From Ailanthus altissimus (Eukaryota > Streptophyta > Magnoliopsida > Sapindales > Simaroubaceae), in the NCBI GenBank assembly GCA_946807835.1, contig OX327690.1, positions 6,482,501-6,546,500 on the forward strand: DNA of 64,000 nt. Direction: 5' to 3'. Shown here piece by piece: positions 14,074 through 63,147 of this stretch. The position numbers and the translations under genes are program-made. How positions within the stretch are numbered: the first letter of the stretch is position 1; every line of letters starts with the position of its first letter. The notes beneath the pieces were generated by a model. That model was not told where the DNA came from, made no database searches, and saw only the letters and a list, made by a program, of their open reading frames with translations.

Positions 14074-15503
14074 TGACACGTCTAGAATATAGGAGTTTAT
14101 TCTCAAGTGCAGCATTGTCAAAGTAATAAATAACCCGATGAGAACAAGGTCGATCCACAAGGAAGTAGAATTAAAATTACAAATTATAAACACTTTAAAG
14201 ACAATTAATGCTGTATAAGATGTTTGTAAATATTAATTCAATTAACCAATTCAAATAAAAGCTAAGGTTAGGGGGATCCACTATTAGCATAAGAAGTAAG
14301 AATATATTTAACTCTTTTTATAACTCAATTGGAATCCTCACACAAATGAGGTTCCAACCAAAAAATATAACAATTAAAGTTCATCATCATTTATATATTG
14401 ATTAATATTTATTTCTTTCAATTATTATACGCTAAATCTTATAAAGGGGTTCAAGTATTTATTATACCAATATTTATATTTGTCTACAATAAATCAAGAC
14501 TCCCACTTTACAAGAAATGTTATATACACCAAATCTTGTAAATGGTTTCAAGAATTTATTGTGCAAAGTATAAATTTTGTCAATAATAAATCAAGAATCA
14601 CCACTTTAGAAGAAAGGATATTAATTCTACAAACAAAATAAATATATCATATATAAATTTGCATAACTTAAGAATGAAGCATTAAATTCTTGAATAAGTG
14701 TTAAACATGTCTTATTACCTTGCCAAGAGCTTCACTCTTTCACCTTAGCATAAAAAAAAATATTTGGACATAATAAAACCAAAGAAAAAGAAAAGAAATG
14801 GAAAAAGAAATAACATGACTTAATAGTAAATAAGAGAAATAATATTATAAAAAAATGGATACAAAGGACAAGTATTTTGAACTAAATTCTAACTTTCTAA
14901 TTACATGCTTTAGGTATAAACAAGACACCAATTTATAGAAAAACATGGATAAATCGAGACAAATTTGAAGGGAACCACTTGGATGATGAAAGTCAAGAAT
15001 GATGGCAAAATAATTTGCATTAATTATCACTAAGGCACCCACTTGATTATCTAATTTGGAATTGATGTGATCTGAATTAGCTGTTACACAAAATATCAAA
15101 GTTATAGTTACATCTCTTATCTTTTCAAATTGAGTTATCTCATACGTATTAGATTCATATTGATATAGTTATAGGCCAAATACTGTAACTGTTTAAACTG
15201 GGCCTGTACTATAGATTAGTTCTGTTCTAGGCCATTTTCACCCTCTAAACACTCAAATTTCAAATGCTTTGTGAAATACAATATGTTAGAACATTGCATC
15301 AACTCTTAACAAGATCAAGAATCACTCTAATTGAATCTTTAGGTAGAAATTTATGCCCATTTTACCGAACCTACTACAAAACAGTTAAAAGATAATTAAG
15401 TATAATATTGTAAACATACTTAAGTTAAGAAAATTAAATACACTAGTAATACAAAATAATGATTTAAAACTCTTATTAAATGTGTAATTTCAAGTGTTCA
15501 TCA
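14074..15503 (-). repeat. 3' LTR of Athila-1
   Basis: The LTR is 1430 bp, identical in length to the copy at 24422-25851. In element orientation it starts TGATGAACAC and ends TAGACGTGTCA. A TATA-like CTATAAAT lies on the minus strand at 14932-14939, consistent with a U3 promoter. It is followed on the plus strand by a rc polypurine tract (15504-15517). Confidence 0.95.
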
Positions 15504-16865
15504 CACCCTTCAACTAGTTTGTTGCTAGTCACTAGAAACTTGAGCATAAATAAAATTTGAACACTACTTAAGTATTTCAAACAAAATGTTAATTCAAGAT
15601 CACAATCGCTATAAAGGTTATTTCAATTATAACTCCTAAAATTTTGTGTGTGTGTGTGAATTAAGCCGAAGCCTTCTTGCCACACACCACAACATATATA
15701 GCCTTGAAATTGTTTTTTAAAGTAAAAATATCAACTCTATATCCTCAAAGGTGAATAGCTTGTTTAATGGCTTAGGATTTCACTCATAGAGTTAGAAAAT
15801 AGATAATTGCACAAGAAAAAGTTACATTTAGTGATAGACGGACAAACTAACATTGATTCAAAGATAGGAAAATCAATTATTTAGAGTCAAACCATTGTTG
15901 TTACATGCTAGCTTCAAGACTTTAATTATTTTATGCAAATCTTACGAATATAGAGTCTGGTGATAAGATTGCTTCCTAATGATTTTAGTCTTCTAAAATT
16001 GAATGAAAACTTTATTGAATTGAATTGACTTCTTTTCTTTTTTTTTTTACTCTTTTTTTTTGTTTTTTTTGAAAGACATAAGGAATCATTACAACATAAG
16101 AGCAATTTATCACCATAATACTTTTCTTTTTTTTTTTCATCCTTCAGCTAAACAACCAAATCATTCCTCATCCTAAATAATGTTATTCCAAATAAAAATT
16201 AACCATTTCAAAAGATCAATGAAAGTTCGTAAGCTTTTATCTCAAACCTTTCCACTCACTCACAAAAGATATGTGAGTTTAGAAAATAATATATATACTT
16301 AAACATGGAAATTCTCTTGGCTATATATATTGAATCATCCATCTTATCACAAGGCTTAGTATTGTTCTCAAGAAATAATTTTTGAAGTTATTCTTTAGTA
16401 ACCTAGATAGAAAAAGTGATTTAAACTAAATAATTTTGAAATCATACATCGATAGCAAAGCAAATTTATTTATGTAAGAGTTACCAAAAACTTAAGCAAC
16501 AAACATAAAATATATTAAAAATAAACTAATTAGAATGTGTTTTAAAAGTTCAGTAATGTACTCTTTACTCTGCCATTCTAGAAGTAGAATGAGTCTCAAG
16601 AATGCATAAATAAATCTTTTATTCACACCATTCATGAAATTATTTTTTATAGAACAAAGTGATAACAACAATAAAATAATTAACACTAATATTATATATC
16701 AACTATCCTCCCCCCAACCAGATTGAGACATTGTCCTCAATGTCAAAATATAGAAAGAGTAAAGTATAGAAGATATCACCTAAAACATCTTTTATTGAAA
16801 ATTAAACCTGCAACAAAATAAAACAAGCCACACAAAATGCTTAAAAATACATAGAAGTAGATAGG
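15504..16865 (-). other. Athila-1 3' non-coding region and purine tracts
   Basis: About 1.36 kb lies between the LOG frame and the 3' LTR. On the minus strand CTAGTTGAAGGGTG directly precedes the LTR and is the likely polypurine primer. A second purine-rich motif is at 16704-16745 (minus strand ACATTGAGGACAATGTCTCA, then CTGGTTGGGGGGAGGATAG). This resembles the 'TTGAGGACAATG...GTTTGGGGG' motif common downstream of pol in plant Athila/Tat elements, and recurs at 52474-52515 in Athila-2. T-runs around 16030-16140 and a short TG microsatellite at 15643-15657 are also present. No other frame is supported. Confidence 0.7.
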
Positions 16866-17518
16866 CTACAGACGGAGCGTCAAATCTATCTTATATTTCT
16901 TTTCATTGCTATCAGTATACCAATCTATCTGACTCATTATTGGATCAGATAGAAGTGTAAAAGTTTGTAGTTAATCGAGTAATTGATCAACAGTTGAAGT
17001 AGAAATGAGGATCTGTCGTGTTGTAGATGAGATGAATTATTTTTTCACCGCATAGTCAAGAAAAGATAACAATCCATTATAAAAACGAACATTTAACAAT
17101 CCAACGAGTTTTTTTTTATATATTTGCAATTGTGCCCATAAGACAATTTGAAAAATTTCCTCCAATGTTTCAAAACCTTCAGGTAGAGCTATGAAGGCAT
17201 CAGCATTACGAAGCATAAAAGATATTTGTTCATGCATTGATGATACATGTAACTCATCCCCAATTATTTTTCCTACAATGTCTCTAACAACCAGAGCTTT
17301 CGGTATGATACCCAAAATTCGACTGTCTTTATTTTGTGCAGCGGTTGCCACACGTCCCATTAATCCAAGACTACCTCCTCCATATACTAAATGAATATTT
17401 TGCTCAGCTAACATCTTACCAAGGGTTTTGCTGCTTCTACAAACTCACTAGTTTTTCCAAGGCTGGATCTATAAAAGACACAAATTTTTGTGAATTTACG
17501 AGTTGATGATCCTTCCAT
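16866..17518 (-). pseudogene. LOG: LOG-like cytokinin phosphoribohydrolase inside Athila-1
   Basis: LOG enzymes release active cytokinin bases from their riboside 5'-monophosphates in the cytosol. From the ATG at 17518 the frame gives KICVFYRSSLGKTSEFVEAA, a one-base shift near 17420, then LVYGGGSLGLMGRVA (the Rossmann nucleotide-binding loop), RILGIIPKALV, RNADAFIALPEGFETLEEIF, WAQLQIYKK and GLLNVRFYNGLLSFLDYAV. Past a stop at 17037 it continues FISSTTRQILISTSTVDQLL, and ends DLTLRL at 16866. That is about 217 codons, the usual length of plant LOGs. There are no introns, whereas plant LOG genes normally have several. The family motif PGGxGTxxE has become PEGFETLEE, and the Arg-Lys of the MHxRK segment is lost (MHEQIS). 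It is therefore inactive. It is collinear with the LOG copy in Athila-2, so it belongs to the element and is not a local insertion. Confidence 0.9.
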
Positions 17519-17581
17519 GATTACACTCACACTCTCTTGAATGATTTTAAGTTTGTACAAAGATGTAAAAATAATGCAATG

Positions 17582-17590
17582 TATTTATAG
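17582..17590 (-). promoter_or_regulatory. TATA box upstream of the Athila-1 LOG
   Basis: The minus strand reads GCTCTATAAATACATTGC, 64 bp upstream of the LOG ATG. The equivalent position in Athila-2 reads ACTCTATAAATACAACACC. Identity of the CTCTATAAATACA core in two otherwise diverged elements suggests a retained promoter. Chance is possible in AT-rich DNA, but the shared position argues against it. No transcription evidence is available. Confidence 0.55.
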
Positions 17591-17736
17591 AGCTAAAAGG
17601 TGTTGCAAAGTTAAGTCACATGGGTTGTTGGCTTAAAATGCAAAATTTTCAAAAAAGATTATAAGTGGTTGGTTATTGAAAAGACATTTGTGTTTGAAAT
17701 GAAACATTTAAAAATAACAGCTATAGTAAATATATA

Positions 17737-18351
17737 CAAGTAGTTGTGATTGTGGCTCACATCTTCCTCTAGTTTTATGTTGAGTAACGGCTTAAACGCC
17801 CTCTATGGGTTAGGGATAGGCTTCCCATCTAATTTTTTTATAAATTGGCAAACAGGGTCTTTTAAAATCAGATTCCTGAGATTGTACCGCTTATGTTCTT
17901 TGAGGAATATATCCCATAATTCACAAATTATAATATGCATATATCCATTAAGATGTGTCTCAAGATTCGATAAGATATCATTTAAAGACTCCTTACTCAA
18001 GCTATCCTTAATGAACCTAATTTTATCTTTGCAATTTATAGACACCATTCCTAAAGTGCGGCAACGTGTGCTGCAAGTCACATGTGCATACTTGTAACAA
18101 ACATTTAATCGTTTTGCTCTTCGTTTTTTTGCAAAAGAGCTTTTACCTAAGTCAGGCATATAGGAAATTAATGAGTCTGAAAATTTACCTATCAATCGAA
18201 CAATAACTTTAATTAACCAATGTAAATCAACAGGTATATTCATAATCATTAATAACCTTGATCTTTCACATCTTGCTTGGTAAATTTTCTTCAAAGAAAT
18301 TTAAGGCAATGAGGGAAAATGCTTTTTCAAATTTTTTAGAATGTCATCCAT
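17737..18351 (-). pseudogene. ORF-X: unrecognised accessory frame of Athila-1
   Basis: The frame is about 205 codons, from an ATG at 18351. It begins MDDILKNLKKHFPSLP, then meets a TAA at codon 17 and continues KIYQARCERSRLLMIMNIPV, DLHWLIKVIVRL, SYMPDLGKSSFAKKRRAKRL, a Cys-rich segment (CYKYAHVTCSTRC), and DPVCQFIKKLDGKPIPNP. A TAG follows at 17803-17805, then conserved residues KLEEDVSHNHNYL. The basic run KKRRAKR resembles a nuclear-localisation signal. I see no membrane helix, protease or zinc-finger fold that I can name. It lies 208 bp after pol and 218 bp before LOG. Athila-2 carries the same frame with stops at the same two places. The function is unknown. Confidence 0.75.
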
Positions 18352-18559
18352 TTTTGTTTTAGAAAAGGGGGAAGAAGAGAAGATATTAGTAATTAGGAAA
18401 AACTGACAAAACCGACTTGAAATTTTACGGAGTATCGTTATCCGCCACTTAACCGGGGTGAAAAATAAAACTTTAACAAAAATAATAAATTAACCTGCAA
18501 GTAAAAAAAAAAAAAAAGTTAGAAGAAAAATAAATATATATAAATATGTAAAATATAGA

Positions 18560-19765
18560 TTAATTGATCTCGTAACAAGGGTCCGACAGGGATGTAAATG
18601 CTTCATGAAAAGCTTGATTTTCTAGAAATGGCTTGAGTCTTTGCCCATTTACCTTAAACACATTCCCATTTCTAAGATTTTCAATGTCAATTATTTCATA
18701 AGGGTACACATGTTTTACAATAAAATGGCCACTCCATCTTGATCTTAATTTTTCAAGGAATATGTGAAGTTGAGAATTATAAAGCAAAACCTTCTGATCA
18801 GTGTCAAAAGTTTTTCTTTGAATTTTTTATCATGAAAAGTTTTGATTTTAGCTTTATGAATTTTCGAATTCTCATATGCATCATTTCTCAATTCTTCAAG
18901 TTCATTTATTTGTAATTTACGTATGTGTCCAGTAGAATCAAGATTTGCATTGAAAGTTTTAATGGCCCAGTAGCCTTTATGCTTAAGTTCCACAGGTAAG
19001 TGACAAGGCTTTTCATAAACTATCTTATAAGGAGACATACCCAATGAAGTTTTAAAAGCAGTTCTATAAGCCCACAGTGTATCATTTAGTCTTAAAGACC
19101 AATCTTTGCGATTTGGGTTTATATTTTTTTCTAAAATTTGTTTTATCTCCCTATTTGCTAATTCAACTTGCCCACTTGTGTGAGGATGATAAGGGGTGGC
19201 AACTTTATGAGTACTACCATATTTTTTCATTAATATTTCAAATGGTCTATTACAAAAATGCTTAACCCCATCACTTATAATGGCTCAAGGGATTGCAAAT
19301 CGACTTAAGATATTTTCTTTCAAAAATTTCATGACTGTTTTATGGTCATTATTTTGACATGGAATAGCCTCAATCTATTTTGAGACATAATCTACTGCAA
19401 ATAAGATATACGTAAATTCAAATGATAACAAAAATGGTCCCATGAAATCTATCCCCCAACAATCATAAATTTCAATAACAAGAATGGGGTTCAAAGGCAT
19501 CATGTTTCGTTTTGAAATTAATTCTAACTTTTGACAATTTTCACACGTTATACAAAATGCATGTGTATCATTAAATAAAGTGGGCCAATAAAATCTACAC
19601 TGCAAGATTTTTACAACTATTTTCTTTGATGAGAAATATCCCCCACATGTTTTAGAATGACAAAATTCAATAACTTTACTTACCTCATTGTCGGGTATGC
19701 ATCTTCGAAATATTTGATCACGATAATATTTGAAGAGATAAGGATCATCCTAATAAAATTTTCTC
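18560..19765 (-). pseudogene. Athila-1 integrase and pol C-terminus
   Basis: The order on the minus strand is: zinc-binding region (YFSSKK near 19630; CITCENCQKLE with the CxxC pair near 19535), catalytic core with WGIDFMGPF (first Asp, about 19455), [14 protein letters not shown] (second Asp, about 19280), [16 protein letters not shown] (catalytic Glu, about 19160), then [20 protein letters not shown] and [15 protein letters not shown], and a C-terminal RSRWSGHFIVKHV with a worn GPY/F motif, ending FKVNGQRLKPFL. Several stops (for example near 19378 and 19288) interrupt it. It would insert element cDNA, but in this state it cannot be made whole. Confidence 0.85.
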
Positions 19766-19768
19766 ACC

Positions 19769-21033
19769 TCAGTTAAAAATTTCTTTTTGTCTTGAGCATT
19801 CCATTGAGGTGGCATTTCTCCTGTTATAAGCAAAATTAATAATATTAGCATACCAAGGCATTGTAACAGTAAAAAATAAAAATTCATCGAGAAAAGAATC
19901 ATTAATATGTGTTATTTCTGTTGATGAATCTAGTGCGAGTCTTGATAAGTGATCTACAACAACATTCTTAGCTCCCTTCTTATCCTTGATAGTGATAATA
20001 AATTCTTGAAGCAATAGAATCCATCGAATCGACCTTAGTTTTACATCCTGTTTTGACATTAAGTACCTTACAGCAGCATGGTCAGTAAATACAACAGTTG
20101 AAGAACCAATTAAGTAAGAACGAAATTTGTCTAATGTAAATATTACAGCAAATAGTTCTTTTTCAGTTGTTATGTAATTTATTTGTGCACTGTTTAAAGT
20201 TCTACTTACGTAATAAATTACATAGGATTTACCTTCTTTTCTTTGTCCCAATACAGCACCAACAACGTAGTCACTAGCATCACATATTAGCTTAAAAGGT
20301 AAAGACCAGTCAGAAGATTCTATGATAGAAGCAGATGTTAAGAGGCCAATTAATTTTTCAAATGAATTTTGACACTCTTGAGTCCACTCAAATGATACAT
20401 TTTTTGCTAAGAGGTTACAAAGAGATTTAGATATAGCATTAAATGTTTTGATGAACCTCCTATAAAATCCAGCATGTCCTAAAAAGAATCGGACTTCTTT
20501 GACTGTTTTTGGTAGAGGCAAATGTGTAATGAGTTCAAATTTTGCATTATCCACTTCAATTTCTTTAGAAGACACTACATGTCCCAAAATAATTCCAGAA
20601 GTAACCATGTAATGACATTTTTCCCAATTCAATACAAAACTTTTTTCTTCACATCTTTTTAAGACTTTTTCTAACTTTTCAAGACAATTATCAAAAGAAT
20701 TTCCAAACATAGTTAAATTCTAAATAATGTTCAATCATGTCACTAAAAATGCTTAACATACATCTCTAAAATGTTACTGGGACATTACAAAGTCCAAAGG
20801 CCATTCTTGTAAAAGCAAAGGTTCCAAAGGGGCATGTGAATATAGTTTTTTCTAGGTCCTCTAGTGCTATGAGAATTTGATAATAGCCAGAATAACCATC
20901 TAGAAAGTAATAGTAGGGATGTCCTGCTACTCTTTCTATAATTTAATCAAGGAATGGTAAAAAAAAATGGTCTTTTCTAATGGCTGAGTTCAACTTTCTA
21001 TAATCTATGCACATTCTCCAACTAGATGAGACT
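19769..21033 (-). pseudogene. Athila-1 reverse transcriptase (3' part) and RNase H
   Basis: A 313-codon open stretch (19769-20710) carries the RT thumb/connection ([22 protein letters not shown]) and RNase H ([50 protein letters not shown]) with the acidic residues in place. Upstream, RT blocks are readable (CIDYRKLNSAIRKDHF, LDGYSGYYQI, MAFGLCNVPVTF). At about 20715-20730 the sequence runs from 'HYLE' straight into the codons of 'MFGNSFD'. The 'VFMDD' that Athila-2 still has at 57730 is absent, so the catalytic aspartates are deleted. Confidence 0.85.
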
Positions 21034-22110
21034 CAAGTTGGTATTAACTCATATTTTTCATTTTCAATGACTGTGATTCCAGATTGTTTTGGTGCTACCT
21101 GAGTAGGACTTACCCACTTACTATCTGAGATAGGATAGATGATTCCTACTTCAAGTAATTTGAGAACTTCAGCTCTCACTACCTCTTTTATATGTGGATT
21201 TAATCTCCTTTGAGGTTGTTGGGAAGTTTTGGCATTATCCTCTAGGTGTATTCTATGTGAGCAAATCAAAGGATTAATACCATTTATGTCTTTCAAAGTC
21301 CACCGAATTTCATTTTTATACTTTTTTAATAATTTAATCAACTTACCTTCTTGTTCGCTTGTAAGTGTAGAAGACATTACCACCGGGTAAGTTTGTTTCT
21401 CTCTAAAAAATGCATATTTCAGTCCTTTAGGCAGAGGTTTTAACTCCAACTTTGAAATTTTGTTCTGTTTATCCTCATTTTCTCCCAATTCTTCAAACTT
21501 TAGTTTCCATCCTTTATTTTTAGTCACTTGTGCACAGTCAAGTAAAGAACATATATCAGAGATTTCAGGATCTAATTGTATATTTGACTCAAATGAATTT
21601 ATTAAACACATTTCTAAGGGATTGGTAGAACTCCATTTTTGAATATGATCCTCCACAATCATTTCAATTATGTCGCATTCTTCACTTTCATCCTCTCCTT
21701 CATATGGTTGCTTACACATATTGAAAACATTGAGTTTAAGTGTCATGTTTCCAAATGAAAGCTTCATTACTCCATTCCTGCAATTAATCAAAGCGTTAGA
21801 AGTTGCTAAAAATGGATGACCCAAAATAACAGGTATCAGATTATATTCTTTAACAGGTTCAGTGTCCAAGACAATAACATCCACAGGATATATGAATTTA
21901 TCAACTTGAACTAAAACATCTTCCACTACCCCTCTTGATACTTTTATTGATCTATCAGCAAGTAAAAGGGTTACAGAAGTTGATTTTAACTCACCGAGAT
22001 TGAGCTGCTGATAAACTGAATACAATAATAAATTCACACTAGCACTAAGATCAAGTAAGGCTTGTTTAATTTTATGACTTCTAATAATACATAAAATTAT
22101 AGGACAACCA
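21034..22110 (-). pseudogene. Athila-1 protease and reverse transcriptase N-terminus
   Basis: The retroviral-type aspartic protease begins near 22110 with ALLDLSASVNLLLYSVYQQL. The D-L-S-A-S matches the family's DLGAS, here with Gly changed to Ser. It continues LLLADRSIKVSRGVVEDVLV and VILGHPFLATSNALINCRNG (the second conserved region of the protease). After an acidic linker the RT begins near 21310: RWTLKDINGINPLICSHRIH, RRLNPHIKEVVRAEVLKLLE, SKWVSPTQVAPKQSG. A 334-codon frame (21033-22037) is open here, so decay is milder than in the Copia elements. Processing of Gag-Pol would be its role. Confidence 0.85.
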
Positions 22111-22282
22111 GGTTCTTATATTTTAAAGCATTATTGTTTTGAAGAATGACACTTACTTGTTCAGCTAAAAATGCTTTCTTTTTCACATTCAGTTTTCTTT
22201 TTACTATGTATAAATCCTTCAAAAATTTTGCATAAGAGGGAACCTGTTTAATAGCATCCTGTAAAGGAATATTAACTTTTAC

Positions 22283-23976
22283 CTATTTGAAGATTTCAAA
22301 AATTTCAGGATTGTGATTCATCTTCTTAGTATTATGTAATGCATGAGGAAATGGGAGTGGAGGTGAGAGTTTGGTGTTTTCTTCATTAGGTGTTGGTTTA
22401 ACACTTTCCTTAACCTTAGAGATTGATTCATCGCTCTCATGAGGTTCAGGAATTTCATTTTCAGCAATTTTACCACTTCGAAAAGTGATAACTGCTTTAA
22501 CTTGATTCATGTGTTTGCTTCCTGAACTACATACATTTGAGTTATGTTATCCTTTGGGGTTTGGCTATGGTTGAGAAGGAAATTTTTCTTTCTCATGAAT
22601 GTTCAGTGCAGATGCAAATTAGCAAAAGCATCTTTCAAATCAACAAATGTTTGAGCATTTTGAGAATTAACAGACTCTTGCTTTTCAATGAATGTTTGCA
22701 AAGTTTCTTTAAGATTTTTCCTAGGAGGTAGGACATATGGTGCATAACCTTGATGATTTTGAAAATTTTGGTGTGGTTGGAAAGGTGGTTGTGAAACTTG
22801 TGCTTGAGTGTCATTCCTCCAAGTAAAATTCGGGTGATTTTGCCATCTAGGATTATAGTTTTGTGAATATGGTTTATTGTTTGGCCTCTTGAATGTGTTT
22901 AGAACATTGGCTTGTTCATGGAGACATTCCCTAAATGTAGGCAAAGTTGGGCAATCATTGGTAGAGTGATAATGAGTTTCACAAATGTGACACACAATTT
23001 CTTGAACAGATTTTATTTGATCACTTTTTTTCATTTCTAAGGTTTCGAATTTTCTAGCAAGGGATGCTAATTTGGCTTGAAGGTCCTGGTCTTCCCTAAG
23101 ATAATAAATACCCCCACTAGATGTAGTGGTCTGATTTTTGCTAAGTGCCTCACAAGTATCAACAGTGTTCTAATTTTGAGCATTTTCTGCTAGTAAGTCA
23201 AGATAGTTCATTGCCTCTTCTGGGTCTTTATCCTCAAATGTTCCATTATACATCATTTCTACCATTTGCCTAACTCGGGGTGTTAAGCCCTTATAGAAAT
23301 TTGAGACTAGCCTCCATATTTCAAAGCCATGATGGGGACAGGTATTAAGTAATTCTTTATACATTTTCCAACATTGGTAAAAGGTCTCTCTTGGTTTTTG
23401 GGCAAAAGTCGTGATTTGTCTTTTAAAAGAATTTATTCTATGGGAAGGAAAAAACTTTTTCAGGAATTGTTGTTGCATCTCATCCCATAAAGAAATGAAT
23501 CTCGGCCTAAGGTTTTGTAGTCATGTTTTAGCTTTATCTTTATTAAAAAAAAGGAAAAGCTTAAGTCAAATTGTGTTCATGCTACAATTTTGGTCATTAT
23601 ACATGTTACACACTTTTTCAAATTCTCTTAGATGTAGATAAGGGTTCTCTGCATCTAAGCCATGAAAAGTGGGTAAAAGTTGGATAATGTATGGCTTAAA
23701 ATTAAAATGCGTTGCATCCGGAGGAAAAATTAAGCAAGATGGTGCACCGGTTCATGTAGGGTTCATATAGTCTCTAAGTGTCTTAGGTCGGTTATGGTCA
23801 TTATGTTGAGACTGATTGTCCCCTGGGTCTATGAGTCCCTCAATTTGATTTTTGCTGATGGTGTTAATTGATGAAGAATAAGAAGATGAAGGAGAATTTA
23901 TCAAATTATCAAAGGAAGTTTTGAAATTACCTTTCACAAAATGATGAGAATTAGGATCTCGAAACCAACTGCTCAT
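22283..23976 (-). pseudogene. Athila-1 gag
   Basis: The frame starts at about 23976 (MSSWFRDPNSHHF); earlier in-frame residues are a hydrophobic run unlike gag. Blocks in order are: TLRDYMNP, then NFKPYIIQLLPTFHGLDAEN, MQQQFLKKFFPSHRINSFKR, CWKMYKELLNTCPHHGFEIW, LVSNFYKGLTPRVRQMVEMM, and a zinc knuckle CHICETHYHSTNDC (CX2CX4HX4C, about 22975), then a Gln/Asn/Pro-rich segment. This is the typical Athila gag plan: capsid, zinc knuckle and a long linker to the protease. Stops near 23752, 23590 and 23172 break it. Confidence 0.85.
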
Positions 23977-24150
23977 AAAAAGAAATAAAACAAAATACAA
24001 TAACAATAAATAATACAAATAAGAGAAAAAAATTAAAATATTAAACACAGGTAAATAAAATAGGCAAAAGTAAAAGTAAAATAAAGATAAATAATTAGAA
24101 GTTAGATTAGTAATGTTAGATTATATGATAAAAAGTTAATAAATAAAGAG

Positions 24151-24360
24151 TAAGAGGCTCAGCTTTTCATGAAAATAAAAATAGAATAGTAAATAAAGTA
24201 AAGCACGTTAGGAGGCTCGGTCTTCCATGAAAATAAAAAGCGAATAATAAATAAAGATTAGGAGGCTTAGCCTTTTATGAAATTGAAAAGTGAAAATAAA
24301 AAAGGAATAATAAAAAAAGTAAAGCAAGTTAGGAGACGCAGCCTTCCATGAAAATAAAAG
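24151..24360 (-). repeat. Four imperfect leader repeats of Athila-1
   Basis: Plus-strand copies start at 24151 (TAAGAGGCTCAGCTTTTCAT), 24209 (TAGGAGGCTCGGTCTTCCAT), 24259 (TAGGAGGCTTAGCCTTTTAT) and 24330 (TAGGAGACGCAGCCTTCCAT). Each is followed by GAAAATAAAA-like sequence and an A-rich spacer. They lie between PBS and gag. Similar TTAGGCGGT...CCAT units occur in the leader of Athila-2. Confidence 0.85.
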
Positions 24361-24397
24361 ACGAATAAACAACAAAAGAAATAATATTAATTTCATT

Positions 24398-24416
24398 TCT
24401 CTGGCAACGACGCCAA
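24398..24416 (-). promoter_or_regulatory. Athila-1 primer-binding site (tRNA-Asp type)
   Basis: The minus strand reads TTGGCGTCGTTGCCAGAGA a few bases downstream of the 5' LTR. The plant Athila/Tat primer site is TGGCGCCGTTGCCGGGGA, complementary to tRNA-Asp. Here three C-to-T or G-to-A changes have occurred. Confidence 0.8.
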
Positions 24417-24421
24417 AAACT

Positions 24422-25851
24422 TGACACGTCCAGAATATAGGAGTTTATTCTCAAGTGCAGGATTGTCAAAGTAATAAATAATCCGATGAGAACAAGGTCG
24501 ATCCACAAGGAAGTAGAATTAAAATTACAAATTATAAACACTTTTAAGACAATTAATGTTATATAAGATGTTTGTAAATATTAATTCAATTAACCAATTC
24601 AAATAAAAGCTAAGGTTAGGGGGATTCACTCTTGGCATAAGAAGTAAGAATATATTTAACTCTTTTTATAACTCAATTGGAATCCTCACACAAAGGAGGT
24701 TCCAACCAAAAAATATAACAATTAAAGTTCATCATCATTTATATATTGATTAATATTTATTTCTTTCAATTATTATACGTTAAATCTTATAAATGGGTTC
24801 AAGTATTTATTATGCCAATCTTTATATTTGTCTACAATAAATCAAGACTCCCACTTTACAAGAAATGTTATATACACCAAATCTTGTAAATGGTTTCAAG
24901 AATTTATTGTGCAAAGTATAAATTTTGTCAATAATAAATCAAGAATCACCACTTTAGAAGAAATGGTATTAATTCTACAAACAAAATAAATATATCATAT
25001 ATAAATTTGCATAACTTAAGAATGAAGCATTAAATTCTTGAATAAGTGTTAAACATTTCTTATTACTTTGCCAAGAGCTTCACTCTTTCACCTTAGCATA
25101 AAAAAAATTATTTGGACATAATAAAACCAAAGAAAAAGAAAAGAAATGGAAAAAGAAATAACATGACTTAATAGTAAACAAGAGAAATAATATTACAAAG
25201 AAATGGATACAAAGGACAAGTATTTTGAACTAAATTCTAACTTTCTAATTACATACTTTAGGCATAAACAAGACACCAATTTATAGAAAAATATGGATAA
25301 ATCGAGACAAAGTTGGAGGGAACCACTTGGATGATGAAAGTCAAGAATGATGGAAAAATTAATTTGCATTAATTATCACTAAGGCACCCACTTGATTACC
25401 CAATTTGGAATTGTGTGATCCGAATTAGCTGTTACTCAAAACATCAAAGTTGTAGATACGTCTCTTATCTTTCCAAATTGATTATCTCATACATATTAGA
25501 TACGTATTGCTATAGTTATGGGCCAAATACTGATGATTGTTTAAACTGGGCCTGTACTGCAGATTAGTTCTGTTCTAGGCCGTTTTCACCCTCTAAACAC
25601 TCAAATTTCAAATGCTTTGTGAAACACAATATGTTAGACCATTGAGTCAGCTCTTAACAAGATTAAGAATCACTCCAATTAAATCTTTAGGTAGAAAGTT
25701 ATGCCTATTTTACTGAACTTACTACAAAACAGTTGAAAGATAATTAGGTACAATATTGTAAACATACTTAAGTTAAGAAAATTAAATACACTAGTAATAC
25801 AAAATAATGATTTAAAACTCTTATTAAATGTGTAATTTCAAGTGTCCATCA
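24422..25851 (-). repeat. 5' LTR of Athila-1
   Basis: It is 1430 bp, matching 14074-15503 along its whole length with scattered substitutions. In element orientation it begins TGATGGACACTTGAAATTAC and ends GACGTGTCA. A TATA-like CTATAAAT on the minus strand lies at about 25279-25286. The TSD copy GCTCT follows at 25852. Confidence 0.95.
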
Positions 25852-30535: not shown

Positions 30536-30565
30536 ATTGTGAATGGTACTAAAGCAAGTGGGAGT

Positions 30566-52646: not shown

Positions 52647-53295
52647 TTACAAACAAAGTGTCAGATCCAATTTTCGTTTGTTATGGCCAACTGACCAATC
52701 GATCTGAGTTATTGCTAGGTCAGGTTCGTAGGTAACTGCCTATAATTTGTCAATCAATTCATCCGCATTGATAGCAGAAATGAGAATCTGTCGCACCGAA
52801 TGTGAAATAAAATTATGTTCCACAACTTGATCAAGAAAATAGAGTAAATAATCAAAAATAGTTACTAACATTCAACAAATCTATGGGTTTTCGGAGGATA
52901 TTCAGCTGGGTCTAAGAGGCAATTTAAAAAATTTCTTCTAAGATACCAAAACCACTTGGTAAAGCAATAAAAGCGTCTGCATTGTAAAGCATTCTAACTG
53001 TATGTTCATGCATGGATGAGACTCGTAATTCTTCCCCTAGTGTTTTTCTAGTTAGGTTTCCCATGGCTAAAACTATAGGAATAATACCTAAAACTTGACT
53101 TCTTCCTAAATGTGCAACTGTTGACACACACCCCATTATCCTAAAGCTACCTCCTCCATAAATCAAATAGATTTTTCTTGTAGCTAATACTTTTCCTAGA
53201 TTGTTTGTTGCTTCTACAAACACTTTATTTCCCCCAGGACTAGATCCACAAAATACACATATATTTCAAATTTGTTAAAATGAGGTTTCCTTCAT
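52647..53295 (-). pseudogene. LOG: LOG-like cytokinin phosphoribohydrolase inside Athila-2
   Basis: From an ATG at 53295, after stops in the first 10 codons, it reads ICVFCGSSPGGNKVFVEATN, then NLGKVLATRKIYLIYGGGSF, RSQVLGIIPIVLAMG, NADAFIALPSGFGILEEIF. Past stops comes TQLNI.RKPIDLLNV, then FISHSVRQILISAINADELI, ending DLTLCL at 52647. The N-terminal CGSS motif of LOG proteins is better kept here than in Athila-1 (YRSS). The catalytic motif PGGxGTxxE reads PSGFGILEE, and the MHxRK segment reads MHEHTVR, so Arg and Lys are lost. Its length (649 bases, Athila-1 653) and end point are the same as in Athila-1, and it too has no introns. Substrate and activity are inferred from the family only. 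Confidence 0.9.
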
Positions 53296-53550: not shown

Positions 53551-54168
53551 TTACAGGTAGTTATGATTGTGGCTCATATCTTCCTCTAGTTTTACCTTTA
53601 GTAACGATTTAAACACCCTCTATGGGTCGGGGATAGGTTTCCTATCAAATTTTCTTATAAATTGGCAAATAGGGTCTTTTAGAGTCAGATTCCCGAGACT
53701 ATACTGTTGATGTTCATTTTTGAATTTATTCCATAAATCAAGAAGTTCATGCTGCATGAGCCCACAGGGATGCATCTCAAGAGTCAATAGGATATCATCC
53801 AAAGACTCCTTACTCAGTCCATCCTTAATGAACTAAATTTTATCTTCTCAATTTCTAGATGCAAATCCTAAAGAATGACAACTCCGGTTACAATTTCATC
53901 GAGCACATTTATAACAGACTTGTAACCTTTTTGCTCGTTGCCTTTTGGCATAAGATCTTCTTCCAAGATTAGGCATAAAAGAAATAAAATCATTTGCAGA
54001 CTCACCAGATAATCGAACCTTGGCTTTAATTAACCAACGAATGTCCGCAGGGATATTACTCAACATTAATAGCCTTAGTCTTTCACACCGTGCTTTGTAA
54101 ATCTTAAATAGAGCATTTTAAGGCAATAGAGGAAAACGGTTTTTAAGGTTGGCAAGAATGTGATCCAT
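53551..54168 (-). pseudogene. ORF-X: unrecognised accessory frame of Athila-2
   Basis: 206 codons from the ATG at 54168: MDHILANLKNRFPLLP, TAA at codon 17, then FKIYKARCERLRLLMLSNIP, ADIRWLIKAKVRLSG, SFMPNLGRRSYAKRQRAKRL, QVCYKCAR*NCNRSC, then DPICQFIRKFDRKPIPDP, TAG at 53620-53622, and KLEEDMSHNHNYL with a final TAA. It is collinear with Athila-1 ORF-X over the whole length. The Cys pattern here is C-x2-C..C-x3-C, next to a basic KRQRAKR. The pattern could be metal-binding, but no named domain fits. It lies 255 bp from pol and 255 bp from LOG. Confidence 0.75.
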
Positions 54169-54423: not shown

Positions 54424-56800
54424 CAAGCATGATAGACAGGATTTACAAGAGGGATCTCGTCTAGATACATAGAGTAGTCTACCTTTTCCACATAGCTTTT
54501 CAGCCACTATCCATTCACTTTAAACGTTCATCTATCAGTGGAGTCCTTGATTTCGACAGCACCATTAGAAAAAATATGTCTTATCACAAATGGACTAGTC
54601 CATCAAGATCTCAACTTTCCAGGGTGTAAATGCAATTAAGAATCATAAAGATAAACTCGTTGATTTGGCTCAAAGTATTTCCTTGAGATTTGTTTATCAT
54701 AAGCTGCTTTCATTTTAGCTTTGTAAATCCTAGAGTTGTCATATGCATCATTTCGTAGCTCTTCTATTTCTGACAATTATAACTTTCTCTGAAGACCTGC
54801 AGCACTCAAATCAAAGTTAAGAGGTTTTGACAGCCCAGTAAGCGTTATGCTCTAGCTCAATAGGTAAATAGCAAGCTTTCCTATAGATAAGCTAGTATGG
54901 AGATATTCCTAATATGATTTTGTATGTAGTACGATATGCCATAATGCATCAGAAAGGCGTAGAGACCAATCTTTACGATTTAGGTTAAACGACTTTTTCA
55001 AAATCTGTTTAACCTCTCTATTTACTAGCTCGGCTTGTCCATTTGTCTGTGGATGGTATGTAGTGAAAACTTTATGAAGAACACCATACTTGTGCATCAA
55101 AGCTTCAAAAGAGCGGTTACAGAAATGTATTCCTTGGTCACTAATAATGACATGTGGCATATCGTACCTAGATAATGCAAGTTTTTTAAATATTTTCACC
55201 ACACTTGTATTATTATTAGTACGAAAAGCTACAGCCTCCACTCATTTTGATATATAGTCAATAGCTAAAAGGATGTAAAGGTAGCCAAAGATGAAGGAAA
55301 ATGACCCATAAAATTGATATCCCAATAATCAAATATTCTCAATAATAACAATAGGGTTAAGAGGTATCATATGTCTTTAAGATAAAGTACCTAACGTTTG
55401 ACATCTTTCACAGAAATGACAAAAATTATTAGTGTCTTTGAACAAAGTGGGCTAGTAAAGACTACACTGTAAAATTTTTGCAGCTGTCTTCTTTATAGAA
55501 AAGTAACCACCATAAGCAACACTATGGCAAAAATTTAAGATACTAGAAACTTCACTTTCAGGAATACAACGTAAACTTCACTTTAACCTCTTTATTTGCT
55601 AGCTCGGCTTGTCCATTTGTCTGTAGATGATATGTAGTGAAAACTTTATGAAGAACACCATACTTGTGCATCAAAGTTTAAAAAGAGCGGTTACAGAAAT
55701 GTATTCCTTGGTCACTAATAATAACATGTGACATACCGTACCTAAATAACGCATTTTTTTAAAGATTTTCACCACAGTTGTATTATTATTAGTACGAAAA
55801 AGCTACAGCCTCCACTCATTTTGATATATAGTCAACAACTAGAAGGATGTAAAGATAGCCAAAGATGAGAAAAAATGACCCATAAAATTGATATACCAAT
55901 AATTAAATATCTCAATAACAACAATAGGGTTAAGAGGTATCATATGTCTTCAAGATAAAGTACATAACATTTGACATCTTTCACAGAAACGACAAAAATT
56001 ATTAGTGTTTTTGAACAAAGTAGGCTAGTAAAGACTACATTGTAAAATTTTCGCAGCTGTCTTCTTTATAGAAAAATGACCACTATAAGCAACACTATGG
56101 CAATAATTTAAGACACTAGAAACTTCACTTTCAGGAATACAACGTAAACTTCACTTTAACCTCTTTATTTTCTAACTCGGTTTGTCCATTTGTCTGTGGA
56201 TGGTATATAGTGAAAACTTTATGAAGAACACCATACTTGTGCATCAAAGCTTCAAAAGAGCAGTTACAGAAATGTATTCCTTGGTCACTAATAATGACAT
56301 GTGGCATACCGTACCTAAATAACGCATTTTTTTAAAGATTTTCACTACTGTTGTATTATTATTAGTACGAAAAGCTATAGCCTCCACTCATTTTGATATA
56401 TAGTCAACAGCTAAAAGGATGTAAAGGTAGCCAAAGATGAGGGAAAATGACCCATAAAATTGATATACCAATAATCAAATATCTCAATAACAACAATAGG
56501 GTTAAGAGGTATCATATGTCTTCAAGATAAAGTACCTAACGTTTGACATCTTTCACAGAAACGACAAAAATTATTAGTGTCTTTGAACAAAGTGGGCTAG
56601 TAAAGACTGCCTGTAAACTTTTCACAGCTGTCTTCTTTATAGAAAAGTAACCACCATAAGCAACACTATGGCAAAAATTTAAGACATTAGAAACTTCACT
56701 TTCAGGAATACAATGTCTCATAATTTGGTTAGGACAGTATTTAAAAAGATATGGATCATCCCAATAAAAATTACATACCTCAACTAAGAACTTACGCTTA
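54424..56800 (-). pseudogene. Athila-2 integrase and pol C-terminus
   Basis: The minus strand enters at about 56790 ([20 protein letters not shown], then the HHCC-type region and [20 protein letters not shown]). It then passes through three tandem copies of the core (55011-56713). The last copy reads HVIISDQGIHFCNRSFEALM and QTNGQAELVNREVKQILKKS (catalytic Glu as E in AELVNREV), then [13 protein letters not shown]. The C-terminus ends FKVNGQWLKSYVEKVDYSM with stop at about 54424. A GPF motif (RSRWTGPFV) is kept near 54600. The duplication and stops make it inactive. Confidence 0.8.
55011..56713 (-). repeat. Tandem triplication of ~573 bp in the integrase
   Basis: The block starting AACCTCT(C/T)TATTT begins at 55011, 55585 and 56158, giving units of 574 and 573 bp and a third of about 556 bp. 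Copies 2 and 3 share the junction ACAACGTAAACTTCACTTT and the AACGCATTTTTTTAAAG variant that copy 1 lacks, so they are the closer pair. Each encodes, on the minus strand, from the zinc-binding region to just before LVNREV. Confidence 0.95.
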
Positions 56801-58400
56801 TCTTGTGTACTCCAGTTTGATGGATGTTCACTACAAACCAAATAATTTATGATATGTGCATACCAAGGTATATGGCTTATAGCGAAAAGATGTTTATCAG
56901 GGAAATCATCTCGAATGGGTGACAAATCAATGGAGTCAGTGAACTCAAGGTGGAATAAATGATCAGTAACAACATTTTCAATGCCCTTCTTATCTTTGAT
57001 AGCTAGATCAAATTCCTGCAAAAGAAGAATCCACCTAATTAAACGGACTTTAGAATCTTTTTTAGAAAGAAGGTACTTAAGGGTCGCGTAGTCAGTAAAA
57101 ATAATAATAGGTGAACCAATCAATTAAGAACGAAATTTGTCAAAGGAAAAAACAACAACTAATAGTTATTTTTTAGTAGTAGTATAATTCATCTGAGCAT
57201 CATTCAAAGTCCTACTAGCATAATAAATAACAAAGGGTTTTCCCTCCTTTCATTGCCCAAGAACTTCTCCTACAACATAATTACTTGCATCACACATAAT
57301 TTCAAATGGGAGGTTCCAGTCTAGTGATTGCATGATAGAAGCAATGGTGAGTTTGGCAATGAGTGTTTGGAATGCCTCCTCACACTCTTGTGTCCATGTA
57401 AATTCAACATCTTTTAGCAAAAGGTTATACAATGGTCTAGATATGGCAGAAACATTTTGTATAAACCTCTTATAAAAGCCAATGTATCTAAGAAAAGATT
57501 AGACATCTTTTACCATTTTAGGTGTAGGTAATTTAGAGATTAATTCAATTTTAGCCTTGTCAATCTCTATCCCTCTTTCAGATACAATGTGCCCTAAAAT
57601 AATTCCTAAAGATACCATGAAATGACATTTCTCCTAATTTAGCACAAGTCTTTTTTCTTCACACCTACTCAAAACAGCTTTCAAGTTCAGTAGACATAAA
57701 TCAAAAGAATTACCAAAAACAGTTAAATCATCCATAAAAACTTCTTTACATTTTTCAACCACATCAGAGAAAATACTCAGCATACAATATTGAAAAGTAG
57801 CTGGTGCATTACATAATCCAAATGGCATTCTACGAACAGTATAAGTACCAAAAGGGTATGTAAAAGTGATTTTTTTTCTTGATCTTCTATAATTATCTCG
57901 ATTTGATAATATCCTGAATACCCATCAAGAAAGCAATAAAAGGGATGTCCAACTACACGTTCTAAAATTTAGTCGATAAAGGCAATGGAAAATAGTCTTT
58001 TCTAGTAGCTGTGTTAATTTTCTATAATTAATGCACATCTTCCAACCACTTATTAACCTAGTTGGTACAGGTACCTCATTCTCATTTTCTACAACAGTAA
58101 CCCCAGATTTCTTAGGCACTACTTGAGTTAGACTTACCCATTAACTATAAAAAATTAGGTAGATTATACCCGCATCTAATAGTTTTAAGATTTCTTTCTT
58201 CACAACTTCTTTTATTATTGGGTTAAGTCTTCTTTGTGGGTCTGTACGGGGTTGGGTACCTTCCTCTAAATGAATTCTATGGGATCATTTCAATGGAGAT
58301 ATACCTTTAATATTAGCTATGGTCTAACTTAGTACAGATTTATGTTCTTTTATCAATTTTATCAATTTCTTCTCTTATTTAGCACTAAATTCAGAAGAAA
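56801..58400 (-). pseudogene. Athila-2 reverse transcriptase and RNase H
   Basis: RT at 58380-57480: SGWKMCINYRKLTQ, MPFGLCNAPATFQYCMLS, and KEVFMDDLTVFGNSFDLC, in which the catalytic FMDD is intact. RNase H at 57432-56900: [37 protein letters not shown] (the usual DHA changed to DYA), [17 protein letters not shown]. Frame shifts and stops occur at about 57900, 57630 and 57250. This is the better-kept RT active site of the two Athila elements. Confidence 0.8.
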
Positions 58401-58548
58401 TGATGACAGGAAAGGTATGACCTGGTCCCAAGAATGTGTGTTTTAAACCTTTGGGCAGTAAAGAAAGCTCAACTTGTGGTGTCTCAAGCTTTGATGGTTT
58501 CGGTTTCTCCCTCTCTCATGGCAACTCTTCTACGCGTGGCTGTCAAAA

Positions 58549-59024
58549 TCAAGTCCCTTTATCCTGTGAGTCAAAAATACTAAACACATCAGTTGTTTCA
58601 CCAGGATAATACAATTCTTCAAAATCAAAATCAAAATCAAAGAGGTTTTCTAAAGAATCAAAGCTATGATTTTTATAAGCTTCCTCTGCTATAAGTGTGT
58701 CTACCATATATGAATGATAGCATTCGTCTTCTACTCGTGGTTGCTTGTCAATATGAAAAATATTCACCCCAAGAATCATATTCTCAAAAGATAATTTCAT
58801 TAAACTATTTTTGCATTTAGTAAGAGCGTTTGCAGTGGCAAGAAAAGGTCTCCCCAAAATAAGAGGGATTTTAGACTTCATGTTAACCACAGTGTGAGTA
58901 TCTAAAATAAGAAAATTAACAGGGTAGTAAAATTTATCACTTTGCAACAAAACATCTTTTGCTTTTTCCCGTGGTTTCTTAATTGATCGATTAGCTAATT
59001 GTAAGACTACAGATGTATGTTTAT
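58549..59024 (-). pseudogene. Athila-2 protease (second part)
   Basis: Reads HTSVVLQLANRSIKKPREKA, KDVLLQSDKFYYPVNFLILD, LILGRPFLATANALTKCKNS, matching the Athila-1 protease (VILGHPFLATSNALINCRNG). The catalytic segment lies on the other side of the Copia LTR at about 61235 (CWDLGASVNLMSNSIYL). The 190-codon frame 58549-59121 begins inside the LTR: its first 32 or so residues are LTR-derived. Confidence 0.85.
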
Positions 59025-59029
59025 GTTTA

Positions 59030-61182
59030 TGTATTTTAAGGTGTATGCATGTGATTGTGTACATATTAAAAAAATTAAATACACGTATCATATACATGAA
59101 TATGGCAGCGGAATTTATCATGTAATCAACATATACACATGTACTTTAATTCTTAACAACTTATGAATACAGAAAATATACCTTTGAAGACCTCAGATAA
59201 AGATTTTAAATCCGAATTTCTTTGCTCCAACTTTGAGCTCACCTTGAAATGCACTTTTGTTCAATTCTAGTTCACAATAATCTGGTGGGATTATGAAGCT
59301 AGAATAGCAGCAGTATAATCTCCAGCAATAAGGTTTGATTACTTGAAAGAAAAATAAGAAGGATATATTTTTCTTTCTCCTTTGGTTTTTCTCACAAGTC
59401 TTTGTTCAATGAAAAACTCTCTCAACCAATTCTTCTTTTTCCTCTCAATCCTTGCACAAAAATTGATTCACACACTTGTTAACACACATGAAACCCAACA
59501 ATTTTTAGTGCTCTCAACACTTCACAAGTGCTCCACCAAAATTAGATTAAGTGGCCAACTACCAAAATAATTTTTTGTGGCCATTTTAATGGTCTAATAA
59601 AATTAACCATTAATCACAAAATAGCACTCTACTTAATTTATTTTATGTTTCTCAAATTAGGAATGTCTTCCATTTAGGAATAAAATAAGAAATAAATAAA
59701 ATCATATTTTTATTTAAATAATATTTATTTAATTATTCAAAAACTATTTGAATAATTAATATTTACCTTATTTGATTTTACTAACATGGTTAATGGATGG
59801 ATTCATGATAAAATAATTCATGAAATAAAATTGTGCCACTTGTTAACATCTAATTAGTTAATAACTCTTGCCAACTAATTAAATGATATACTTAACATTT
59901 AAATCTAAACAAGTGCACAACCCGAGGAACCCCGAAACATATTTTCGGTTTGCTGAAATTTTTAGGATGGAACTGTTCAATCCATTATGTTGCCCTAGTG
60001 CACAATAAGTACACTTCATATTGTGAGACTCTCTAGGTCGACGCTCGAATTTTTATATGGAACTCCTCCATAAGTCAGTGAATGATGCTTCACACACATG
60101 TTACGGATATTACAAAGCGGCGCGTTAGATCATACAAGTTGAGGTTATAACATATTCATATAATTCCTCCATCATTTATATATGGGTAGGGCAGAGATAT
60201 AGATCAACACCTTAAAATCTCCATATTCTCAACCTAAAGATTATCTCTAGAATTGTATTTCAATAAATAATATTCTCAAATATTTTTGTAATATTATTTA
60301 TCCCTAGGGTTAAACTCTTTTCCCTGGAATTACTATTTATGGCCATAAGACTTTCTGAAATACAATCTATAGAGCAATAAGATATAGTACTCACCCAAAT
60401 TTGTTGATGGATCCCATATCTATGTACATCGGACTCTATGAGCATCGGACCATACCCAGTGGTCAGACTATGAAAGGTTTCTGACATGTGTGGAACCAAA
60501 GTATGGTGAATCACTCACAAGCCCACCGTGGCACTGAGGTCAAAGGACCACGAATACTACTCAACTCAAAAGACCCTCCATTGATGTCTTTATAGGATGT
60601 CTATTGGAGATTTTTGTGAGTCTGTTCAATATTCAGTCTTTACTGAATACCTTTGTCTCTATACGAGCTTCTACTAAACTCATGGTTTGCTAAGACTAAC
60701 CATCTGGACCATTTAGATATAGACATACACCAATTTATATATTTATTAAGGTATTCACTAACAGACCAGCATCCGTGAAGATAGATTAGGAACATAATAT
60801 ATGAGAACATATTTGTATAATGACATTTTCTAGCACTATTTATAACTCCTTGCAACTACATCATTACTAATATATTCTTAGGTCTTTGTCCCATTTCAGA
60901 CAAGGCTTTAACTCTTTAGATATCGCTGACTCTTATAACCTGATAACTCTTATCAGTGTCAACTCATAGCATTTATAACTCTCAGCATTGCTAATTCTTA
61001 GCACTGAGCTAAACTCATTTAGACCAGATTTGAACTCTTTCAGATCGTACAATGTCTGAAACGTTACAAGCATCTTACCATATATAAATATAATTAGCGA
61101 TTTAATGAAATAATAATACTAGTATAAATATTAAACAAATATTCATACATAAAGAGATAGCATGTAAGCACAAATTCCGATA
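59030..61182 (-). mobile_element. Solo Copia LTR inserted in the Athila-2 protease
   Basis: 2153 bp, the same LTR as Copia-A (30566-32667). The minus strand starts TATCGGAATTTGTGCTTACA and ends CACCTTAAAATACA. Perfect 5-bp TSDs GTTTA lie at 59025-59029 and 61183-61187. Removing the LTR and one TSD leaves the Athila protease frame continuous. No Copia PBS or gag is attached, so it is a solo LTR. The frames inside (for example 60260-60514, 60640-60855) are not genes. Confidence 0.95.
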
Positions 61183-61187
61183 GTTTA

Positions 61188-63147
61188 ATCTCACCCAGTC
61201 CTAATTACAAGTAAATAGAATTAGACATTAAATTTACACTTGCTCCTAAGTCCCAACAAAGATTGACAAAACTCATATGTCCTAATTTGGCAGGAGATTG
61301 TAGGACATCATAGGTTTTTATACTTGGGTGATGTCTTTTGTTCAATTACTGCACTTACCTGTTCTGCCAAAAATACAATTTTCTTTATATGGTGTTTACT
61401 TTTGATAGTGCATAGATCCTTAATGACTTTTGCATAAGTTGGAACCTGCTAATCAAATGCAACAAGGAAATATTAATCTTAACTTGTTTTAAATGTTCTA
61501 AAATCTCACCTTGAATTTCTAAATTTTTCCCAACAGGTCGAAGAGCTTGAGAAAAAAGCACTGGGATTGAAAACTTATGTTTGAGCTCTTTTTCCACTAT
61601 AGCCTCTTTTTTAAGGGGGCATCTTTACTACTCGTAGATGTGTTAGTTTCAGAAGTAGGCTCACTCACAATCTTAGCACTTCAAGTAGTAATGGCGTTGA
61701 CTTCTTTGAGATTTTATGCATTAAAAGTATAAACTTGTGCCATTAATTGTCTTTTTGGATTGGATTGAGGTTAAGATGGAAACTGACTTTACTCTTGTAT
61801 AGTTAAGGCACTAGTCAGCTTAATGATTTGACTCTTGATTTCTTTGTTTTTTTCTATCACCTGTGCAAGAATTATTTCAAATTTTTTATTAGTCTTATTT
61901 TATGCCTCTATAAATGCTTGTAATATATCCTCTAAAGGACTCTTGGTTGGTTATGCATTATATTGAGGTGTAATATAAGACTTAAGTGCTTGTTGTTCTT
62001 GCTTCTAATGGTTGTTGGCTTGTTGGTCAGATTTTCAACTAAAGTTTAGGCGGTTTCTCCAACTAGGATTATAGGTTTCAGAGTAGGGTAAATAAAGCTT
62101 CTTGTACATCCCTTGGGCATTACATTGTTCCTCATATATCCCTCTCATCTTACTATAAGTGGGACAATCCTGAACTAAGTGTTCCGCTCCTCCACAGACA
62201 AAACAAACATCATTTGACTCAACCCTAGCAACTGTATGGGTGACCCTTTTATCTTTAGTGTTTAAGGCCTCTAATTTCCTAGTTAAGACCTCTAACTAGG
62301 CTTTAAGGCTATCCTCTTCCCTAAGATGAAAAATGTCATTAGGTCGTAACCTATTTGTACTTTCAATAGCGCTAGGTCCAGTCCATGTATGGACTTTTTC
62401 GGTTAAGTTATTAAGAAATTCTATAGCTTTCTCAGAATCTTTGTGAAGAAACTCCCCATTACACATCATCTCAACAAATTGACGCTCTTTAATTGTGAGC
62501 CCCTCATAAAAATAGCTAACCAAGTGCCAATTTTCATACCCATAGTGAGGGCACAGATTTAACAACTCTTTAAACCTTTTCCAAGCTTGATATAAGGTTT
62601 AACTGTCTTTTTGGAAAAAGGAAGAAATCTGTCTTTTCAGGCCATTAGTTTTATGTTGTGGAAAGTATTTATTGAAAAATGCTTGGGTCATTTTTGCCCA
62701 AGTTCCTATAGACCTTGGCCTTAAAGAGTATAACCAACTCTTTACTTTGTCTTTCAAAGAAAAACATTTAAGCATAACAGTGTCTATAGCTTCACGTTGG
62801 CTATGGAATGTGGCAATTACCTCTTCAAATTTCCTAACATATACATAAGGATTTTCATTATCTAGACTATGAAAAGTGGGCAGAAATTGTATCATTCTAG
62901 GTTTAAAATTTGAATATGGTATATTATGTGGAAATATAATACATGATGGTGTGGCTATGTGAGTAGGATGCAAGTAATCTTTTAAAGTTCTAATAGGGTT
63001 ATCCTCGTGTTGGCTCATTGTGTTGGAATTATAAGATGAACTAGATGGTGAATTCTCTTTTCTTACAAATTGTGGTGGTGGTTCTAGTTCTACTTCTCTC
63101 ACAAATCTTCCTCGTTTGTCTCTAAGTTGAAAATTATATCCTAACAA
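61188..63147 (-). pseudogene. Athila-2 gag and start of protease
   Basis: From the ATG at 63147: MLGYNFQLRDKRGRFVREVE, TLKDYLHPTHIATPSCIIF, NFKPRMIQFLPTFHSLDNEN, MTQAFFNKYFPQHKTNGLKR (180 codons open), then LCPHYGYENWHLVSYFYEGL. The zinc knuckle CFVCGGAEHLVQDC (CX2CX4HX4C) is near 62200. A Gln-rich linker and KNLEIQGEILEHLKQVKINI (61530) lead to the protease catalytic DLGAS near 61235. Its plan equals Athila-1 gag. Stops at about 62598, 62290 and later break it. Confidence 0.85.

Follow-up and report, generated by a model that had tools for sequence, protein, structure and literature searches.

LOG is the cytokinin-activating enzyme of plants. Gypsy elements that carry LOG were reportedly described in 2011 by Steinbauerova et al. 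as Athila-like, with similarity to LOGL4. The YgdH domain, otherwise present in LOG proteins, has been reported in the LTR-retrotransposon consensus of two Citrus species and, without the filter of that survey, in elements of Populus trichocarpa (PMC9289625, Alvarado-Marchena et al. 2022); the 2022 survey of Citrus and Populus is said there to be in line with a 2011 report. Gypsy elements of Phalaenopsis have captured an AlkB m6A demethylase, an accessory gene proposed to act against host control and active in vitro (PMC9289625). In Athila and Calypso elements, an env-like frame follows pol. The origin and functions of the extra frames of plant retrotransposons are said to remain unknown (PMC11728184). 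The nucleic acid-binding proteins (NABP) of carla- and allexiviruses (PF05515, PF01623) are encoded by a 3'-proximal gene of the virus, and proteins of this kind suppress RNA silencing in, for example, sweet potato chlorotic fleck virus, potato virus M and chrysanthemum virus B (PMC12172455). The cysteine-rich protein (CRP) of chrysanthemum virus B is also a transcription factor that induces hyperplasia (PMC12172455).

Two Athila-type elements, designated element 1 and element 2, were compared with these systems. Like the plant Ty3/gypsy elements with LOG/YgdH, they have additional coding sequence for a LOG-family domain, and like Athila and Calypso elements they have an extra 3' frame on the coding strand. 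They differ from the latter in that the additional frames are a LOG homologue and an NABP-like frame, ORF-X, and no match to Athila ORF-1 (PF03078) was obtained in the frames scanned. They differ from the former in having ORF-X beside LOG, as the passages of PMC9289625 on the LOG/YgdH elements mention no viral-NABP-like frame. ORF-X resembles the viral proteins in its profile, in its basic stretch followed by cysteines, and in its location in the 3' part of the element. It is unlike them in cysteine spacing, in its length of about 180 codons and in its retrotransposon setting, and its NABP function is predicted. The accessory genes are comparable with the captured AlkB of Phalaenopsis, although AlkB is a different enzyme with activity in vitro (PMC9289625), whereas any activity of the genes described here is predicted from sequence.

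The window, which is the whole 64-kb stretch of DNA that was analysed, has a G+C content of 31%, is packed with nested repeats and is plant-like in content. Element 1 is inserted within a diverged repeat. Its LTR limits were set by the TG...CA ends, 1 base inside the BLAST match, and the two LTRs are 95.3% identical (K2P 0.046). The 5-bp flanks, GCTAT and GCTCT, form a target-site duplication with one mismatch, and a related empty site, GCTGT, is found at 41686-41690 in a diverged copy of the surrounding repeat that lacks element 1. The K2P value corresponds to an insertion age of about 1.8 to 3.3 million years at assumed rates of 1.3e-8 and 7e-9 substitutions per site per year. The primer-binding region is presumably of the tRNA-Asp type, judged by the Athila signature. 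A tRNA-Asp primer is given for the related Diaspora and Calypso elements (PMC1142308). Element 1 has the gene order of the Athila lineage (LTR-gag-protease-RT-RNase H-integrase-LTR), with PF03732, PF17917 and PF17921 in sequence and the protease placed by position. Two of its pol pieces are assigned by position and motif: the frame at 21033..22115, for which the Pfam scan gave no family, we take to be the protease region and the start of reverse transcriptase, and that at 18745..19284, without a significant Pfam match, presumably represents the integrase core and C-terminal piece. The pieces scanned, which cover part of the element, contain no second RNase H of the kind found in Tat. Each LTR of element 1 contains a 97-bp unit in about two copies (14426-14615 and 24782-24969). 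Elsewhere in the window, 4403-4769 on the plus strand is 71% identical to the LTR start of element 1 and may stem from a related family, as a lone or broken LTR.

Features of the two Athila-type elements in the 64-kb window, with the evidence for each
Feature	Positions	Strand	Evidence
Element 1, whole Athila-type LTR retrotransposon	14074..25851	-	LTR pair, ends, flanks
5' LTR of element 1	24422..25851	-	LTR pair, K2P 0.046 to 3' LTR
Primer-binding region, directly inside 5' LTR of element 1	24401..24421	-	sequence inspected
gag piece, element 1	23170..23520	-	PF03732 4.9e-13
Protease region and start of reverse transcriptase (presumed), element 1	21033..22115	-	open frame, position
End of reverse transcriptase and RNase H, element 1	19769..20719	-	PF17917 2.2e-33, PF17919 3.3e-29 (19769-20710)
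Integrase zinc-binding piece, element 1	19375..19749	-	PF17921 2.6e-10
Integrase core and C-terminal piece (presumed), element 1	18745..19284	-	position; tblastn match to element 2 integrase
ORF-X of element 1	17803..18351	-	PF05515 Viral_NABP 2.9e-6, 27.8 bits, cut-off 23
LOG homologue of element 1	16869..17518	-	PF03641 1.3e-22; TIGR00730 1.7e-28, above cut-off
3' LTR of element 1	14074..15503	-	LTR pair comparison
gag-pol of element 2	54636..63147	-	PF03732, PF00078, PF17917
ORF-X of element 2	53620..54168	-	piece 53896-54117: PF05515 1.4e-4, 22.4 bits, cut-off 23
LOG homologue of element 2	~52650..53265	-	piece 52924-53265: PF03641 2.1e-11, TIGR00730 2.8e-25

Element 2 lies about 36 kb from element 1, also on the minus strand, and is more decayed; roughly one base in three differs between the two elements. 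Its integrase region contains a 573-bp stretch three times in tandem (55008-56716, about 92-95% identical), and its gag-pol is interrupted by a 2.1-kb insertion at 59034-61182. This insertion is an inverted relative (80%) of 30566-32664, and more relatives are found near 36030 and 46400. Upstream of the gag of element 2, degenerate tandem repeats form a long A-rich array (63259-63884). No LTR pair of element 2 was found within the 64-kb window, so the element probably continues past the window at its 5' end. No third copy of the LOG or ORF-X frame was detected in the window by tblastn with the pieces of element 1 (E up to 0.01).

The location of the LOG homologue and ORF-X between integrase and 3' LTR, on the coding strand of element 1, agrees with the earlier note: on the minus strand, the segment 16866-18351 extends from the ATG of ORF-X, which comes first after integrase, to the end of LOG. 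A separate host LOG gene merely lying near the element was rejected, as LOG is situated between integrase and 3' LTR in element 1. The LOG of element 2 occupies the equivalent position. The earlier note had also given the second element the same two frames in the same order, spacing and length; order and ORF-X length are indeed common to both, the spacing is similar, and the LOG of element 2 is the more broken.

In both copies ORF-X, which the earlier note left unnamed, is 183 codons long with its stop counted; the two align free of indels and are 72% identical at the DNA level. Codon 17 is a TAA in each copy (18301-18303 in element 1 and 54118-54120 in element 2, both on the minus strand). 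It is the sole internal stop in element 1, where 165 codons are open after it, while element 2 has three further internal stops. By simple counting, such a coincidence would be expected by chance in about 4 in 181 cases. The codons on both sides, the 16 before the TAA and those after, look conserved, and the TAA may possibly close a short upstream frame, be spliced out or read through, or be a defect that both copies inherited.

The top Pfam match of ORF-X in both copies is PF05515 Viral_NABP, the carla-/allexivirus family, above the curated cut-off in copy 1 and just below it in copy 2, and this match to a plant RNA-virus protein family is new here. The other match, also to a carlavirus family, is PF01623 Carla_C4 (0.0065 and 0.032, below cut-off). 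The element 2 C-terminal piece 53620-53832 gave no Pfam match, and ORF-X of element 1 gave no NCBIfam match. The matched part has a basic stretch followed by cysteines. In copy 2 these cysteines span a stop and are arranged as C-x2-C-x4-C-x3-C; in copy 1 a Tyr takes the place of the second. In carlaviruses a basic motif stands beside a zinc-finger-like motif, which in potato virus H is C-X2-C-X9-C-X4-C (PMC3689765), a longer spacing than that of ORF-X. The match to Viral_NABP is significant but not strong, and it probably reflects a genuine relationship.

One alternative is that ORF-X arose in retrotransposons or in the host as a basic zinc-finger protein and merely resembles the viral NABP. 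The match lies in a basic, cysteine-containing stretch (residues 20-98 in element 1, E 2.9e-6), the cysteine spacing is unlike that of carlaviruses, and structure gives no support to a viral relationship, as the AlphaFold model of ORF-X (pLDDT 45) is too poor to use. Against this, PF05515 and PF01623 are the sole Pfam families matched by those ORF-X pieces that match at all, in scans with E up to 0.1 in one and up to 1 in the other, and neither was matched by any of six decoys (five shuffles and the reversed protein), two of which weakly matched unrelated families (0.034 at best). This alternative is considered less likely than not. A sequence search of solved structures yielded three weak matches to spike-protein constructs (best 0.0063), which were rejected as chance matches of helical sequence because no stretch was significant by itself. 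Viral contigs scanned with one piece per ORF-X and one LOG piece contained no relative.

The LOG of element 1 was described in the earlier note as full-length, with about 217 codons, but is not one open frame: it is interrupted by one frameshift and two in-frame stops. That of element 2 is interrupted by several stops and shifts, more than in element 1, and an intact LOG frame is thus present in neither copy. Their membership in the family, for which the earlier note had proposed the PF03641 and TIGR00730 profiles, is borne out for copy 1, whose longest piece exceeds both cut-offs; in copy 2 the piece 52924-53265 exceeds that of PF03641 but scores 89.1 bits against the cut-off of 96.35 for TIGR00730. 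The N-terminal piece of the element 1 LOG (17408-17584) gave no match by itself in the profile scans. Arabidopsis At2g37210 is the closest solved structure for the element 1 LOG (1.2e-33), with no intron-sized gap in the alignment, and it also matches the element 2 piece 52924-53265 (2e-27).

The proposed catalytic residues of LOG are an Arg and a Glu, and PGGxGTxxE binds the AMP part (PMC8234997). The corresponding positions in the element LOGs, assigned by alignment offset, fit R99 and E122 of 5ITS. The Glu is retained in both copies, while the Arg is lost in both, being replaced by Gln (CAA) in copy 1 and His (CAT) in copy 2; the two residues that follow it are changed too in both copies, and the PGGxGT motif is damaged in both, partly at different positions. 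Neither copy therefore retains the combination of catalytic Arg, Glu and PGGxGTxxE. Three of the seven active-site residues are changed in each copy, compared with 8 and 9 of the 34 other reference-invariant residues, which is no excess (Fisher p 0.36 and 0.40), so that the damage to LOG can be plain decay. Possibly the LOG of the ancestor was already without the catalytic Arg. With the Arg missing from both LOGs, the motif damaged and losses not in excess, an active ancestral LOG is not established, and both present copies are predicted to make no active LOG. The suggestion that such an element could raise cytokinin activity in its host cell finds no support for these two, and an effect of these very copies on cytokinin was rejected on account of the broken frames and the lost arginine.

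A second alternative is that the element retained the LOG fold for nucleotide binding or for a structural role and that the protein does not perform the LOG reaction. The loss in both copies of the Arg, together with the changes at the two residues after it, would be expected under this explanation, as would the retained Glu and a low overall dN/dS. However, active-site residues have been lost no more often than other invariant ones, and PGGxGT is altered differently in the two copies, a pattern that also fits independent decay after insertion. Retention as a non-enzyme is therefore regarded as unlikely.

Selection was assessed by dN/dS between elements 1 and 2, codon by codon and with bootstrap ranges. 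The values are 0.29 for LOG (173 codons, 0.16-0.46) and 0.34 for ORF-X (143 codons, 0.19-0.56), with 0.59 and 0.48 silent differences per site, respectively. As yardsticks, the pol regions gave 0.15 for RT/RNase H (0.00-0.26), 0.07 for integrase (0.00-0.23) and 0.30 for the protease region (0.00-0.48); in each of these regions silent sites are close to saturation. A 1.3-kb non-coding 3' stretch read in an arbitrary frame served as a control and gave 0.78 (0.53-1.28), a range that overlaps the upper edge of that of ORF-X. The short spacer between LOG and ORF-X is uninformative (0.39, range 0.00-1.65). Since decay after insertion shifts dN/dS towards 1, purifying selection probably acted on LOG and ORF-X during the active period of the family. 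These values bear on a third alternative, in which LOG and ORF-X are passengers that were transduced by chance and persisted without benefit. Transduction of host genes by plant retrotransposons is known (PMC7264820), and the LOG frames are broken in both copies. For mere passengers, though, ratios as low as those of LOG and ORF-X would be unexpected at such levels of silent difference, and so would an ORF-X of 183 codons free of indels. Persistence as chance cargo is accordingly judged quite improbable.

The relationship of the two LOGs was examined in trees of five rows, comprising the two element LOGs, two Arabidopsis LOGs and one bacterial LOG, with At5g11950 and 5ZBJ among the rows. The element LOGs cluster together with support of 91/91 with 87 columns, under the firm-support mark of the tool, and 93/93 with 88 columns; branches in the five-row tree are long, and none of its forks reaches the firm-support mark. 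The element LOGs have 10 residues in common that are absent from the two Arabidopsis LOGs and the bacterial LOG, and they are identical to each other at 49 of 87 positions, compared with 39-42 of 87 to the other three rows. Given this grouping, the common order and the common ORF-X, a single ancestral acquisition of LOG and ORF-X appears to be the simplest reading for the two elements of the 64-kb window, which make up the sample of copies. The data thus fit the capture by a common ancestor and the spread by retrotransposition that the earlier note had suggested, in order, ORF-X length, LOG grouping and dN/dS below 1. Separate local insertions of host genes into the two elements are highly improbable, as two genes, their order and the length of ORF-X are common to both elements, the spacing is similar and the LOGs group; two independent captures were rejected on the same order, length and grouping.

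The preferred explanation starts from what was observed or computed, namely the positions and order of LOG and ORF-X, their family matches and the selection signal. It supposes that a LOG-like and a viral-NABP-like gene constitute an accessory module that was gained once and kept because its effect on the host cell benefited the element, and it is as yet evenly poised between right and wrong. An ancestor of Athila type would have gained both genes once, downstream of integrase, with LOG taken up from a spliced plant mRNA and the NABP-like gene derived from an RNA virus. By converting cytokinin nucleotides into active bases, the LOG product would keep the expressing cell dividing and permissive. 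Like its viral relatives, the NABP-like product would bind nucleic acid and make RNA silencing less effective. Together the products may have led to more, or better-expressed, copies of the element; in both copies present here the module is now decaying. A bolder version, that a plant endogenous-retrovirus lineage paired an RNA-virus silencing suppressor with a host cytokinin enzyme, keeping cells dividing and unsilenced in an oncogene-like strategy, is rather improbable.

The earlier note presented LOG in a retroelement as a new kind of cargo. That claim is too strong, because LOG/YgdH domains have already been reported in plant gypsy elements (PMC9289625); the match of ORF-X and its pairing with LOG are what is new. 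No report of a viral-NABP-like gene in a retrotransposon was found in the open-access literature, judged by title among the matches listed. Both frames have named relatives, a hormone-activating enzyme for LOG and a family that includes known silencing suppressors for ORF-X, and concrete tests are therefore possible. If the pair were functional, it would represent a plant retroelement with genes directed against host silencing and for host cell proliferation.

Other repeats are also present in the window. The segments 11435-14071 and 25852-32069, on the one hand, and 39058-42245 and 45000-47873, on the other, represent one longer repeat stretch in two diverged versions (about 73-75%). Each version holds a relative (78%) of a 2.75-kb insert, at 26850-29618 and 42243-44996; the two inserts are in opposite orientation, and their sites differ by about 450 bp. 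Finally, a copia-type gag piece is located at 39702-40238.
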